Part shown: positions 6,744-15,104 of the stretch, piece after piece
Layout of the letters: the number at the start of each line of letters is the position of its first letter
How positions within the stretch are numbered: the first letter of the stretch is position 1
Assembly: GCF_026627925.1 (NCBI RefSeq)
Contig: NZ_JAPNLE010000009.1
Coordinates: 2,418,001 to 2,482,000 of the forward strand
Direction of reading: 5' to 3'
DNA length: 64,000 bases
Origin: Cupriavidus sp. D39
GTDB lineage: Bacteria; Pseudomonadota; Gammaproteobacteria; Burkholderiales; Burkholderiaceae
Notes under the pieces: generated by a model
What the model was told of the DNA's origin: nothing
The model's input: only the letters and a program-made list of their open reading frames with translations
The model's database searches: none
Made by a program: the position numbers and the translations under genes

Positions 6744-7729
6744 TCAGTCGATCTTGGCGCCGGACTGCTGCACCACCGTAGCCCAGCGCTTGATCTCGGC
6801 GCGCTGGAACTGTGCGAACTGCTCTTGTGTGAAGGCCGGCGTGTCGGAGCCGTTGGCAATCCAGATCTGTTTCATCTCCGGCGTGTTGAGTGCTTTCTCC
6901 ACCTCGGTGTAAAGCCTGTCGACGATGTCCTTGGGCGTGTTCTTCGGCACCCACATCGCGTACCAGGTGGAAACCTCGTAGTTGGGCACCCCGGCCTCGG
7001 CGGCGGTGGGCACGTTCGGGAACGCAGCCGAGCGCTTGGTCGATGCCACCGCCAGCGCCTTGATGCGGCCGGCGCGGATGTGCTGGGCAGAAGAGCCGAG
7101 CCCATCGAAATCCATGTCCACCTGGCCCGCGATCAGGTCGGACAGCGCAGGGCCCGCCCCTTGTACGGGATATGCGTGATGAAGGTCTTGGTCTGCAGCT
7201 TGAACAGCTCGCCCGCCAGATGGTGGGAGGAGCCGTTGCCGGCCGAGGCGTAGTTCAGCTTGCCGGGATTCTTCTTGGCGTAGTCGATCAGCTCGCCCAG
7301 CGTGTTGGCGGTGACCTTGGCCGGGTTCACCACGATCACCTGCGGCGGCTGCGCGATCACCGTGATGGGGATGAAATCCTTCTCGATGTCGTAGTCGAGC
7401 TTCTTGTAGAACGACGGTGCGATGGCGTGGTGCGCGCCGCCGATGAACACGGTATAGCCGTCCGGCGCGGCCTTGGACGCGATGCTGGCGCCCACGGTGC
7501 CGCCGGCGCCGCCGCGGTTATCGATCACGAACTGCTTGCCGATCTGCTTGGAAAGCTGCGCGGTCAGCGGGCGGGCGAAGGCATCGGTGCCACCGCCGGC
7601 CGGGAACGGCACGATCACGGTGATCGGCTTGGACGGCCAGGTGTCGGCCTGCGCCACGGGGGCTACCGCGCCCAAACCCGCGCCCAGCGCGCAAGCCAGC
7701 CCTGCCAGTTGAAACTGACGACGATTCAT
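6744..7729 (-). CDS. Bug-type tripartite tricarboxylate transporter substrate-binding protein (frameshifted)
   Basis: After correction, a protein of about 328 residues with signal peptide MNRRQFQLAGLACALGAGLG and the Bug/TctC hallmarks WPSKPITVIVPFPAGGGTDA and VIDNRGGAGGTVGA, then GQVDMDFDGLGSSAQHIRAG, PNVPTAAEAGVPNYEVSTWY. Bug proteins are periplasmic receptors for carboxylates. The frame breaks near 7155 in a GGGGCGGG run; one added base restores YKG-AGPALSDLIAGQVD. No TctA/TctB membrane partner is encoded in the window, so this is an orphan receptor. Its place between matA and matB suggests it binds malonate or a related acid. Confidence 0.88.
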
Positions 7730-7835
7730 GACTCTGTCTCCTCTCTCTCTGTTCTGCTGCGGAAAGTCAAAATGAAGAACGGCTGGCATGGCCCGGAGAA
7801 CGCGGCCCGCGGCCTTGTCTTTTACCTGACCAGGG

Positions 7836-9301
7836 TTACAACAGCTTGCTCACCGCGCGGCTCATGCGCGGGGATCCGTTGCCAAGGCGCACCAGATTGT
7901 CATCGAGCGCTTCGGGCACGTAAAGATAATTCACCATCATGCCGCACGACTGCGCGCGCCCTTGCGCGACAGATCGGCGGCCCAGTTCAGCCGCTCCACG
8001 CAGGCGCCATTGCCCAGGTGAAAGCGCGCCACCGGATCGGCCGGCAGCGCCTGCTGGCGCTCGCGCACCAGATAATGCGCGGCCAGCGCCAGCGCGGTGT
8101 CGCGCACCATCGCGTCCCCGGAATCGGCAGGCAGCGCGGCCAGCCAGCCGGCGCCGTCGGCGGGCGGCGTGCCGTGGCGCTCGCGCCAGCGCGCCAGGCG
8201 CTTGTCGCCCAGCACCTTGGCCACCGACTCGCCATCGCGCTTGCGCAGCCAGTCGGCAAACCCGGGAATGGGCGAGAGCGTGGCGAACTGCTTGAGCTTG
8301 GGAAACTCGCGCTGCAATTCCCCGATCACGCGCTTGAGCAGGAAGTTGCCGAAGCTCACGCCGCGCAGGCCTGCCTGCGTATTGGAGATGGAATAGAAGA
8401 TCGCCCACTTCACGCGGCGCAGGTCTTCCAGCGGCGCGGCTTCGTCCAGCAGCGCGTGGACGTTGGCGGCCATCTCGGGCACGAAGGCCACCTCGACAAA
8501 GATCAGCGGCTCGCGCGGCATGCGCGGGTGGAAGAACGCATAGCAGCGGCGATCGGAATCGAGCCGGTTGCGCAGATCCGCCCAGGACGCGATCTCGTGC
8601 ACGGCCTCGTAGCGGATCAGCTTTTCCAGCAGCGAGGCGGGCGAGTCCCAGGTGATGGGCTGCAATTCCAGCAGGCCCACGTCGAACCAGTTGGAGAACA
8701 ACGCCTCCAGATCGTCGTCGAGCGGGCGCAGGCCCGGCACGCGCTTGTGCCAGCGCAGCATGTCCGCACGCAGGCCGATCAGGAAATGCAAGCCGCAGAC
8801 GCTCGCGCCCTGCTGCCCGTGTAGGGCAGCCAGCCGCTTGAAAAAACGGATGCGCGCGTTGGACATGGCCTGTGGCAGGCCGGACGCGGATCTGGCCGCC
8901 TTTCCGTCCATGCCATCCTTGCCGTCCTTGCCCTGGTCATCCGCTTGCACGCTGCCGCTGGCCGCGACTTCGGCCAGCACGCCGAGCATGGCCTGGCGCG
9001 CGTCATCGCCCGCGGCTTCGTACTCGGCCCGCCAGGTTTGCGCGGCGGTATTGGCGGCGCTGTCGGTCAGGCGCGCGTCGAAGCACTGGCGCAGCTGCTC
9101 GCGCTGCCGGCGCAGCACGCGAGCCGGGAGCGCCACGGCCTTGGCGTGCGCCTTGGCATCCGCAGTCGCATTCGGCTTGGCCTTGCCATCGCCCTTACGG
9201 CCCCACCACCGGCCGAAGCGCGACAACAGGGTGTCCGCCAACGGCTCATGGCCGCTAAGGGGAGCGCTGACTTTCTGTTCGGTGTTGCTGAGGGAATCCA
9301 T
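7836..9301 (-). CDS. matA: Malonyl-CoA decarboxylase MatA (frameshifted near C-terminus)
   Basis: A malonyl-CoA decarboxylase of about 488 residues, converting malonyl-CoA to acetyl-CoA and CO2. Family segments include RFFKRLAALHGQQGASVCGL, FLIGLRADML, ITWDSPASLLEKLIRYEAVH, RCYAFFHPRMPREPLIFVEV and FYSISNTQAGLRGVSFGNFL. The frame stops at 7937, but the true C-terminus (GMMVNYLYVPEALDDN to MSRAVSKLL, ending 7836) continues in another frame. One missing base in the GCGCGC run near 7955 explains this. The start is ATG 9301. Immediately upstream is the GntR-type regulator, whose frame appears fused to this one only because of another missing base. Confidence 0.92.
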
Positions 9302-9313
9302 GGGCGTACCTGC

Positions 9314-9387
9314 TCTTGGCTGTCTTCTTGGCTGTCTGTTAGCTGCTATCGGTCCATCGGTCCATCGGACTATCGGACTATCGGTTA
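9314..9387. repeat. Short tandem repeats between gntR and matA
   Basis: Two adjacent microrepeats. TCTTGGCTGTCT occurs twice in tandem (9314-9325, 9326-9337). Then come five 8-base units with core ATCGG at 9348, 9356, 9364, 9372 and 9380 (ATCGGTCC twice, ATCGGACT twice, ATCGGTTA once). The corrected gntR stop codon (9380-9378) falls inside this array. Such repeats are prone to slippage. Confidence 0.9.
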
Positions 9388-10123
9388 GTGGATGATTTGC
9401 CTGCCAGGTGCAGGCGGGCCTGCTGTGTGCCGGGGGCGGATCGCCGCCATCGACAACGTCGCCGGCCTCGGCCATCTCCGCGGCGTCCAGCGCCCTGAGC
9501 GCGCCGCGCTGGCGTAGCAAGTGCGTCTTCATCAGGGTTTCGGCGCCCTCCGGGTCATGCGCCTTGAGCGCGGAGAACACCGACAGATGCTCGGCGCAGG
9601 ATTCGCGGATGCGGCCTGGCAGCTTCAGGCTCTTGTGGCGCGACAGCCGCAGCACCTTGCGCAGGTCGCTGATCAGGCCGGACAGCCAGCGATTGCCGGC
9701 GAGCCGCTGGATGGCTTCGTGGATCTGGTAGTTGGTCTCGTAGTAGGCGTCGATATTGCCGGCTTGCGCATACTGCGTCAGGTCGGCGTGCAGGCTTTCG
9801 AGCGCGTCCAGGTCCTCGGCGGTGGCGTTGCGCGCGGCCTCATAGGCGCAGCGCCCTTCCAGCAGCGCCATCAGCGGGAAGATCTCGTCGAGGTCCTGCT
9901 CGGACAGCGCGTTGACGAAGCAGCCGCGGCGCGGCTCCAGCCGCACCAGGCCTTCGGCGGCCAGCACCTTGAGCGCCTCGCGCATCGGCGTGCGCGAGAT
10001 CCCCATCGACTCGGCCACCGCGGCTTCGTCGATCCAGGCGCCGGGCATCAGCGCGTGCTCGTCGATCATGGTGCGCAGGCGCTCCGCGACTTCAAGGTAC
10101 AGGGCCTGCTGGATGATGCGCAT
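9378..10123 (-). CDS. GntR/FCD family regulator of the malonate cluster (frame disturbed)
   Basis: An FCD-subfamily GntR regulator of about 248 residues. The winged helix is near residues 10-75 (WIDEAAVAESMGISRTPMRE, LVRLEPRRGCFVNALS) and is followed by an all-helical FCD ligand domain (YYETNYQIHEAIQRLAGN, SCAEHLSVFSALKAHD). As written, the frame runs on into matA. Adding one base to the C-run opposite 9432-9436 gives a C-terminus ending QQARLHLAGKSSTNR and a stop at 9380-9378. Regulators here usually sense malonate or malonyl-CoA and repress the operon. A palindromic candidate operator lies 82 bases upstream of the ATG. Confidence 0.85.
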
Positions 10124-10204
10124 GGTGCCTCCGGACGGAAATGCAATGGCAATGGCATCGGGGTGGCGGATGAAGCGATGGAATGTGTCTTGCCAGGCCC
10201 AATA

Positions 10205-10220
10205 ATTCATAATTATGAAT
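10205..10220. promoter_or_regulatory. Candidate GntR operator
   Basis: Perfect 16-base palindrome ATTCATAATTATGAAT in otherwise GC-rich DNA, upstream of the gntR-matA operon. FCD regulators bind short palindromes of this kind. The rest of the 10,124-10,490 gap shows no gene that I can support. Confidence 0.55.
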
Positions 10221-10490
10221 AACGGCGACGCGAAGACAAGACAATTCGATGTTGCGCAGCCGCATGCGCTGCATGCACCAGGAAGGTAAAATTGGGCCGC
10301 GACGCCCCTGGACAGTGACGGTTAAGTACCCTGACTAGCCCGCCTCGCCAGCGCCGGCGCGGCTCCGGCACAGGCTGTGCAGCCGCCGTACCAGCCAGCG
10401 CTCGCCCTGGCACTCTCGCTGACGCGCCGCAGCACGCAGCCTCGGGCGTGAATTGCCACGGTGGCCACGCCAGTCTCGAACGCCATTGCG

Positions 10491-12298
10491 CTAGCGCGCT
10501 GAAAAAACCACCTGCAAATCCGTCGGCATCATCGTAAAGACAAAGGCCTCCCCACTGGCCCCGATCCCGGCGCATGCCTGACATCAAAGTTCTGGCAGAC
10601 CATCGAAATCGCCGCCTTGGCCTCCAGCAACGCGAGATTGCGTCCCGGACACAAGCGCGGTCCCGAGCCGAACGGCACGAAGCCGCTGCGATGCTGGGCC
10701 GCCGCCGCGCCCTGCAGCCAGCGCTCCGGCCGGAACTCCCGGGCAGCGGGGAAGTTGCGCTCCTGCAGCGCGTTGGGCCGGTTCAACAGCACGACCAGCG
10801 TCCCGCGCGGCACCCGCACGCCGCCGACAGCCACATCGACGTTGGGTTCGAGGAAGAGGAGCGGCGCGACCGGCTTGAGCCGCAGCGATTCATGCGCGAC
10901 CGCCTCCACATACACGAGCCTGGCGGCATCCCGTATGTCCTGCAAGACCTCTGCCTGCCCCAGCACCGCCCCAACTTCCTCCTGCATCCTGTGCTGCACC
11001 TCCGGGTGGCTGCACATGAAATGCATCATCCAGGCGATGGTGTTGGCGGTCGTATCCTCGCCCGCTACCAGCATGGTGAAGATGTTTGCGAACAGCTCCT
11101 CATCGTCCAGCGACGCCTGGCCCGCGGCCTGGGCAACCAGCATCGCCTCCAGGAAGTTGGTCGGATGCGCGGCGAGCTCCGGGCTCTGCGCCAGCCGCTG
11201 GCGTGCCGCGGCGATGAACTCGCCGATGGTTTGGCGGATCGCCACCATGGCACGGTCGAACGAGCGGTCCGCCGGCAGCCTGAGGTAGTGCCAGTACGGA
11301 AATGGCGCATTGATGCGCCGGTTCACCATCGGCAAGATCTGTTCTAGATGCTTTTGGATAGCCTCGCCTTCGCGCTCCAGCGTATTCATGTCGTAGCCGA
11401 AGGCCAGGGCGGTCGTCACGTCAACGGTGTACCGCATCAGGTCATGCTGCACATCCACATGCCGTCTTTGCGCGGCCGCCTTTTGCCATCGCCGCTTCAG
11501 CCTCAGTGTGACGCTGGACAGCATTGGAAAGAAATCGCGCAGCCGGTGCGCGTCGAGCGCCTGCGCGACCGGCCGGCGCTGCCTGCGCCACACCTCGCCC
11601 TCGGCGGCGAACACGCCGAGCGCGCCCAACTCCAGCGCCACCGCCTCGAGCGCGCCGATACGGCGATAGGTCTCGGGCCGGTCATGGAGGATCTTGTCGA
11701 TCAACTCCCCTTGCGCGACCACCAGGGCCAGCCGGTTCATCAGGCGGATGCTGTACAGGGGACCGAACGCCTCGCACCATTGCTCGAAGACCAGGTGCAT
11801 CCGCCGCTGCTCCCATTGCAACTGCAACGCGCTGCCTAGCAAGGGCAGCCCCTTCGGCCCGGGAAGCTCCGCGAGCGAGCGCAGGCCAGGGCTCGGCGGC
11901 GACGCTGGCGACGCCGCATCCCGCTCTGCCTGCAGGCGCTGCCACGCGAGCACGTCATCGCGCTCCACCCTGACCTCGCCGTCTTCGACGAAGGCGGTGA
12001 ACCGCTTCAGGCAGACCTCGGGCCGCTCGGCCGCGCTTCCGGAACCGCAGTCGAAGCGCCAGCCGTGCCCACGGCATGTCAGCGTGCCGTTTTCGATGGC
12101 GCCTTCCGCCAGCAGCGTGCCCCGGTGGGGGCAGTGCCCCTGGTAGACCACGGCGCCGCCGCCATGTCCGATCACGACGAGATCCACCCCGTCCACACTG
12201 GCCGGCAGCGCAACGTCGTCGCGCAGGTCCGCCGTGGCAGCGACGCGTACCCGCTTCGGGGAAGCCTCGGCTCCAGCCGCCTCACGTGCCATTTCCAC
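10491..12298 (-). CDS. Rieske ferredoxin-cytochrome P450 fusion protein (frameshifted near C-terminus)
   Basis: One frame joins an N-terminal Rieske [2Fe-2S] domain (residues about 15-115; ligands C56, H58, C75, H78 in CPHRG and CRGHGWRF) to a complete P450 domain from about residue 146 (PGPKGLPLLG). The P450 has the I-helix AGEDTT (412-417), the ExxR motif ESLR (470-473) and the heme loop FGSGPRLCPGR with C550. The frame stops at 10529. Adding one base to the CCCC run near 10550 restores GEAFVFTMMPTDLQVVFSAR and a stop at 10491. The start is GTG 12298 or ATG 12292. The Rieske domain probably delivers electrons to the heme. Substrate and reductase are unknown, and no reductase gene is adjacent. 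Confidence 0.88.
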
Positions 12299-14106: not shown

Positions 14107-15104
14107 TCAGGCTGCGTCCGTCAGGTGCCTCGCCGCAGCGGCCGCGCCCGGCGCCGTGGCCAGTTTTATGCCAGCCTTTTGCGTCAGCGTCATGGCAGCG
14201 GCCAGCGCGCCGGCGATCTCGATGAACGATCTCAGCACGGGGCTCACGCTGTCGGCACCGGCCTCCCGCCACACCAGCCCGGTCTCGATATCGGGCCCGG
14301 CGTCGCGCAGCGGCAGGTAGGACACACCGGTACGGCGAAGGTTGCAAAGCGAGGCCGGTACCAGCGCCACGCCCATGCCGGCGGACACCAGGCTGACGAT
14401 GGTCTGCATCTGGATGGCCTCCTGGGCGATCACCGGCGTGAGGCCTTCGCGCGCATAACAGCCCGTAATGATGTCATAAAACGCCGGCGCGCTTCGCCGG
14501 GGAAGATGATAAGCGGCTCGTGCGCCGCATCCTTTAGCGAAACGCCCTCCTCCCCCGCCTTCGCGCCGCCCGGGCACCAGCCTTCCGGCACGGCCAGCAC
14601 CAGCGGCTCGCGCACCAGCGGCAGGTAGGCCACGCCATGCGGCATGGCCGGTAGTTGCGGGCGGATCACCAGCCCGGCGTCGATGCCGCCGTCCATCAGG
14701 GCCTCCAGCTGGATATCGCTGGTGGCCTCGCGCAGTTGCAGTTGCACATTGGGATGGCGTGCCCGGAAGCTGCGCAGCAGGTCGGGCAGGATGCCGTAGT
14801 CGGCCGTGCTGACGAAGGCCAGCGACAGCGTGCCGGCCTCCCCGCGCGCCAGCCGCTGGGCCAGGCCCGGCAGTGCTGCGGCGTCGGCCAGCACGCGGCG
14901 CACCTCGGGCAACCATTGCTGGCCAGCCGGAGTGAGCGCCACCGAACGCCGCGTGCGGGCGAACAGTTGCACGCCGATCTCCTCCTCCAGCGCCTGGATC
15001 TGCTGGGACAGCGGCGGCTGCGTCATGGTGAGACGCTGCGCGGCGCGGCCAAAATGTAACTCCTCCGCCACGGTAACGAAGTAGCGCAACTGGCGCAGGT
15101 CCAC
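14107..15104 (-). CDS. LysR-type regulator divergent from ilvD (frameshifted)
   Basis: A LysR regulator of about 332 residues. Its helix-turn-helix opens [25 protein letters not shown], from a GTG start at 15104. The effector domain follows in two frames, broken near 14489 where one added base in GCGCGCCGG restores [14 protein letters not shown]. The C-terminal half contains [11 protein letters not shown], typical of the family. It is transcribed divergently from ilvD with 165 bases between the starts, so it may regulate ilvD, although the sequence does not show an effector. Confidence 0.85.

Follow-up and report, generated by a model that had tools for sequence, protein, structure and literature searches.

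A Rieske domain joined to the N-terminus of a cytochrome P450: architecture, distribution and a probable route of electrons to the heme

How a cytochrome P450 with a Rieske domain at its N-terminus receives its electrons is the question raised by one open reading frame in the window, the 64,000-nucleotide stretch of Cupriavidus sp. D39 DNA analysed here. The frame lies on the minus strand (10529..12298, 589 aa, read from 12298 to 10529), with a GTG start and a stop at 10529-10531, and inspection located an in-frame ATG two codons after the GTG. The preliminary description names no strand; the plus strand of 10491-12298 contains stops.

Domains and motifs of the fused chain

Pfam recognised two domains in the chain and no others, both above their family cut-offs: a Rieske [2Fe-2S] domain at residues 17-95 (12014..12250, minus strand; PF00355, E 2e-14) and a cytochrome P450 domain at residues 146-581 (10556..11863, minus strand; PF00067, E 2.1e-84). 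The preliminary description had placed the two domains in a single uninterrupted frame, and the one minus-strand ORF bears this out; the stop between the domains that it had named as a possible refutation is absent from the linker, and its residue numbers for C56, H58, C75, H78 and the heme ligand C550 were correct, as were its motifs AGEDTT and ESLR. Since none of the 11 NCBIfam models listed for the ORF passed its cut-off, no named NCBIfam family covers the fusion.

The Rieske-type CxH...CxxH cluster ligands are present as C56-P-H58 (12125..12133, minus strand) and C75-R-G-H78 (12065..12076, minus strand). Two P450 searches gave 167 proteins in their combined best-120 lists, 141 of them longer than 540 aa, and all four ligands were kept in 140 of these 141, a fair count because it was taken without selection for the Rieske motif; standard ligand spacing and the heme loop were additionally found in 139. 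Across the 45 rows of alignment A1, neither the ligands nor the P450 motifs vary, but for the ligands this is built in, the 44 relatives having been selected for the Rieske motif. The sole exception among the long relatives, P0052, is a fused protein that lacks one Rieske cysteine and has an altered heme loop, and it may be a decayed copy or an error.

When the Rieske part was searched as a single sequence, its best solved relative was T4moC of toluene-4-monooxygenase (PDB 1sjg; E 2.6e-13). T4moC also ranked top with profile A3 (E 2.3e-23), which was built from 11 fused Rieske domains and two free Rieske ferredoxins, sequences of which the single-sequence result is independent. The second-best profile matches were the Rieske oxygenases SxtT and SxtDIOX at 7-8e-14, covering part of the domain. 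A search that depends on shared 5-residue words found only two free Rieske ferredoxins near the fused domain, with 32-33% identity. The domain is not a free small electron carrier like the Rieske-type ferredoxins, being fused to a P450 in one ORF. Rieske oxygenases likewise hold a Rieske cluster beside an oxygen-activating centre, but their catalytic domain contains non-heme iron, whereas here it is a heme P450; Pfam placed no mononuclear iron catalytic domain, as in the alpha subunits of these enzymes, after the Rieske domain.

The P450 domain carries the superfamily signature FxxGxRxCxG as the heme-binding loop FGSGPRLCPG with Cys550 (10643..10672, minus strand; sequence motif, alignment A1). 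The K-helix ExxR is ESLR at residues 470-473 (10880..10891, minus strand), and neither E470 nor R473 varies across the 45 A1 rows; the acid and threonine of the I-helix lie in AGEDTT at residues 412-417 (11048..11065, minus strand), likewise invariant there. Among 139 long relatives, the I-helix motif was AGEDTT in 136 and AGQDTT in three. The whole-chain predicted model (pLDDT 88, pTM 0.86) was used for a fold search, which returned P450 chains throughout and informs on the P450 part, not on the Rieske part; the nearest folds were CYP97, BM3 and CYP46A1. P450s of these kinds usually receive electrons from flavoproteins or a plant-type ferredoxin. In a comparison of 47 fused with 33 stand-alone rows, six positions of the P450 domain distinguish the two groups, each of them weakly. 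The same genome holds another P450 (G000:C9:3208551-3209918) that is 27% identical and lies in a 1132-aa open frame, CYP102-like by length.

The two domains are connected by a variable linker rich in Ala, Ser and Pro at about residues 123-145 (11864..11932, minus strand). Among relatives its sequence is variable and its length varies somewhat, the last Rieske histidine and the P450 PGP motif being 51-70 residues apart in the 95 of 97 relatives for which the motif was located. The mean pLDDT of residues 131-140 is 64. The earlier reading of the linker as a domain hinge holds.

Distribution and shared history of the two domains

A search for relatives scored 8000 candidates and kept 2530, and domain content was taken from the best 120 of these. 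PF00355 and PF00067 occurred in one chain in 99, and the P450 alone in 21, one of which (P0058) is a fusion cut short. The objection that homologues might always keep the domains as separate genes is answered by these 99 fused proteins. With a distant relative as query, both domains were found in 110 of the 120 best-listed matches. By source name, fused relatives among the best-listed span six phyla, several being metagenome assemblies; they include Cupriavidus, Paraburkholderia, Burkholderia, Methylopila (Alphaproteobacteria), Terriglobia (Acidobacteriota), Anaeromyxobacteraceae and Polyangiaceae (Myxococcota), Anaerolineae and Caldilineaceae (Chloroflexota), Candidatus Uabimicrobium (Planctomycetota) and a Bacteroidota bacterium. 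Databases do show the architecture, since the automatic JGI name of many such proteins combines both domain names. Judged by sequence, it is widespread and not a one-off. Among the best 120, P450-only relatives are up to 67% identical within the P450 part, and their existence indicates that the P450 evidently can do without a fused Rieske domain.

Within genomes, the fusion was found in 9 of 60 members of the genus sample, the own genome counted. With the three best candidates scored per genome, strong matches appeared in 13 of 399 genomes of the order sample and in 4 of 398 of the phylum sample; in these two samples a match covered the Rieske part only in the own genome, and the others started at model position 104 or later. 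Nine of 72,556 plasmid records matched, one across the whole length. A scan of named genomes gave 15 loci, five of which had both motifs in one frame (four on the Cupriavidus side and one in an Anaerolineae assembly); the other ten were P450-only in the available sequence, which in one case ends at a contig end. Around the window gene and seven genus loci, up to four predicted genes per side, or fewer near contig ends, were read by eye from translations; these flanks vary from clade to clade, and no common neighbourhood theme was seen by eye among ten P450-only and eight named loci. The fusion is a sporadic accessory gene with varied neighbourhoods and a patchy distribution.

Fused Rieske domains share a mean mutual identity of 47.5% (minimum 24.8%; 97 proteins). 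Their identities to T4moC (residues 23-105 only) average 31.8% and reach 41.5%, and those to the two free Rieske ferredoxins reach 34.6% at most; the ranges within the fused set and towards free proteins overlap. The identities of the Rieske and P450 parts correlate (r 0.73, 45 proteins; none of 5000 permutations was as high). Such correlated divergence fits a single fusion whose two parts were then inherited or transferred together, though it is no proof of a single event, and it speaks against domain reshuffling. A tree of 86 P450 domains (P0001, the 44 A1 relatives, the 22 best-120 rows that lack the full motif, and 19 of 20 locus rows, L006 yielding none) needs six changes of the fused or stand-alone label when L062_s is dropped and P0058 counted as a fusion, so the fused state changed several times, by gain or by loss. 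It was built by a quick method that leaves 24 of 83 inner branches open and contains long branches (L016, L021, L065); its starred branches alone forced four label changes with L062_s included and P0058 taken as stand-alone.

The C-terminal frame break

Up to residue 583, the ORF differs from its nearest relative, P0001, by one substitution, after which the two diverge. The ORF thereby departs from the conserved C-terminal P450 tail of about 20 residues, which comparison with relatives places in another frame at about 10490..10550 on the minus strand (limits approximate). P0001 has an intact C-terminus, showing that an intact copy exists. Similar disturbances were seen nearby: a gene for TctC, a tripartite tricarboxylate receptor (6744-7789, minus strand), lies in two frames with profile positions 2-142 and 162-273, a LysR regulator gene (14107-15098, minus strand) also lies in two frames, and a GntR/FCD regulator and a malonyl-CoA decarboxylase are merged in a 757-aa frame (7937-10210, minus strand) that may be a real fusion or a lost stop. 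These broken and merged frames favour indel errors of assembly over biological change, and base errors in the assembly are probably the simplest reading of the break. The preliminary description had already suspected a base error confined to the extreme C-terminus, and the position of the break after residue 583, together with the broken genes nearby, agrees with it.

The same disturbances could be taken to mean that the fusion itself is an artefact, two genes thrown into one frame by an indel-ridden assembly. The single-chain layout of 99 of the 120 best-listed relatives, whose contigs reach 9.5 Mb, and the recurrence in the genus sample leave this a negligible chance, and a frame error as the origin of the fusion is ruled out by the fused relatives. 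Another reading, compatible with the preferred explanation for the family, takes the window's copy for a decaying pseudogene of a once-working fusion. The frame break itself and the scattered occurrence among genomes of the genus (9 of 60) point in that direction, while the frame is otherwise intact with every motif, the codon-position bias resembles that of neighbouring genes, the similar breaks in those genes point at sequencing, and P0001, so nearly identical, is unbroken; we consider decay quite unlikely. If the frame break is real, the window's copy may be non-working.

Electron supply to the heme

Self-sufficient P450s such as CYP116B and CYP102 have a flavin reductase in the same chain. 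In the fusion, Pfam detected no reductase domain, and the chains of intact relatives stop after about 600 aa; nor was a reductase recognised by eye among up to four predicted genes on either side of the window's gene or of its relatives at seven genus loci. The fusion is therefore not self-sufficient. Like CYP116B/P450RhF and CYP102/BM3, it combines a P450 with a covalently linked domain of an electron-transfer type. In P450RhF, the redox domains are C-terminal and include a flavin reductase. The same arrangement is described for CYP102/BM3 (PMC9519919), whereas here there is an N-terminal Rieske domain only.

The nearest precedents are the CYP51-ferredoxin fusion and DoxA with a free Rieske ferredoxin. 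The ferredoxin of the CYP51-ferredoxin fusion belongs to another iron-sulfur family. That protein, from Methylococcus capsulatus, likewise joins P450 and ferredoxin in one chain and relies on an outside reductase, and its ferredoxin domain is flexible; it is a sterol 14-demethylase with a C-terminal ferredoxin (PMC9519919), whereas the iron-sulfur domain here is N-terminal and Rieske. In the DoxA system, a free Cys2His2 Rieske ferredoxin (SpFdx4) and a ferredoxin reductase drive the P450 in vitro, with 88% DoxA conversion to DHD with SpFdR3 (PMC12979805). These are three separate proteins rather than one chain, and they are likened to the fusion here by description. The preliminary description had called Rieske an unusual redox partner for a P450; unusual it is, but DoxA shows that it is not unprecedented. 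T4moC, the closest solved relative in sequence, is a free protein of 112 aa that serves a diiron hydroxylase and not a heme (PMC4200526).

We favour, with a probability of roughly 0.7, a P450 monooxygenase that would carry its own N-terminal Rieske ferredoxin, with electrons passing from a separate flavin reductase that uses NAD(P)H through the Rieske cluster to the heme. The reductase would reduce the Rieske cluster, and the Rieske domain, on its tether of about 25 residues, would dock near the heme and might hand over, singly, both electrons that the P450 cycle requires; the reduced P450 would then hydroxylate its substrate. This mechanism is proposed on account of the single chain, the intact ligands and motifs, the layout shared across phyla, the correlated divergence, the likeness to T4moC and the DoxA precedent. 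Candidate reductases may be sought among the three matches to PF14759 (Reductase_C-family ferredoxin reductase) in the own genome, presumably BphA4-type enzymes. Two of them lie about 1.0 kb from small Rieske-matching open frames (114 and 127 aa), beyond which a larger Rieske protein is encoded. Rieske proteins have potentials of +100 to +400 mV (PMC6237146). Such values are too high for a usual P450 and count against the proposed route, as do the P450-only relatives, the likeness of the P450 fold to kinds with other usual donors, and the Rieske oxygenases among the second-best profile matches. Rieske ferredoxins of the dioxygenase type have lower potentials.

Alternatively, the Rieske domain may not be the heme donor at all and may instead act as a redox or oxygen sensor or as a stabiliser, with a flavodoxin or ferredoxin outside the chain supplying the P450, as must be the case for the stand-alone relatives. 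The nesting of P450-only relatives among fused ones over six label changes and a P450 fold of the BM3/CYP97 type would suit such a role, as would the efficient reconstitution of the activity of the CYP51-ferredoxin fusion, or of its P450 domain alone, with flavodoxin and flavodoxin reductase from E. coli (PMC9519919). Retention of the ligands in 140 of 141 long relatives and the nature of the nearest solved relative, T4moC, as a dedicated electron-transfer ferredoxin argue against it, and we regard a non-donor Rieske domain as unlikely. The reading of the Rieske domain as heme donor might be extended, tentatively and with somewhat less than even odds, to a separate and old redox class of P450s that would have arisen by one joining, spread or been inherited across phyla and been lost in the stand-alone branches, with the fused Rieske domain as obligate immediate heme donor and reductases of the dioxygenase-ferredoxin kind.

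Regarding the substrate, a distant relative in Methylorubrum extorquens AM1 (megaplasmid NC_012811, 31061-32884; 43.6% identity over residues 17-581; Rieske and P450 both by Pfam) adjoins genes predicted to encode an AMP-binding enzyme, a thioesterase and a DUF3047 protein (L069, 6016-11818), and is followed by a transposase gene. In the plasmid's table a single feature spans the record, which makes missing annotation there uninformative. The row from AMP-binding enzyme to Rieske-P450 is possibly a small acyl-modifying cluster, and these neighbours, at one locus of a distant relative, give a weak hint of an acyl chain as substrate.

Among the papers listed by full-text searches of the open-access literature we found no description of a Rieske-P450 fusion, and subscription papers or preprints may hold one; the pairing looks like an undescribed route of electrons to P450. 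Redox partners restrict the uses of bacterial P450s, and a natural covalent Rieske-P450 pairing, if true, would be an extra donor type in the P450 toolbox. It would show interchange between the electron chains of P450s and dioxygenases, and it would allow Rieske-driven heme reduction to be studied inside one chain.
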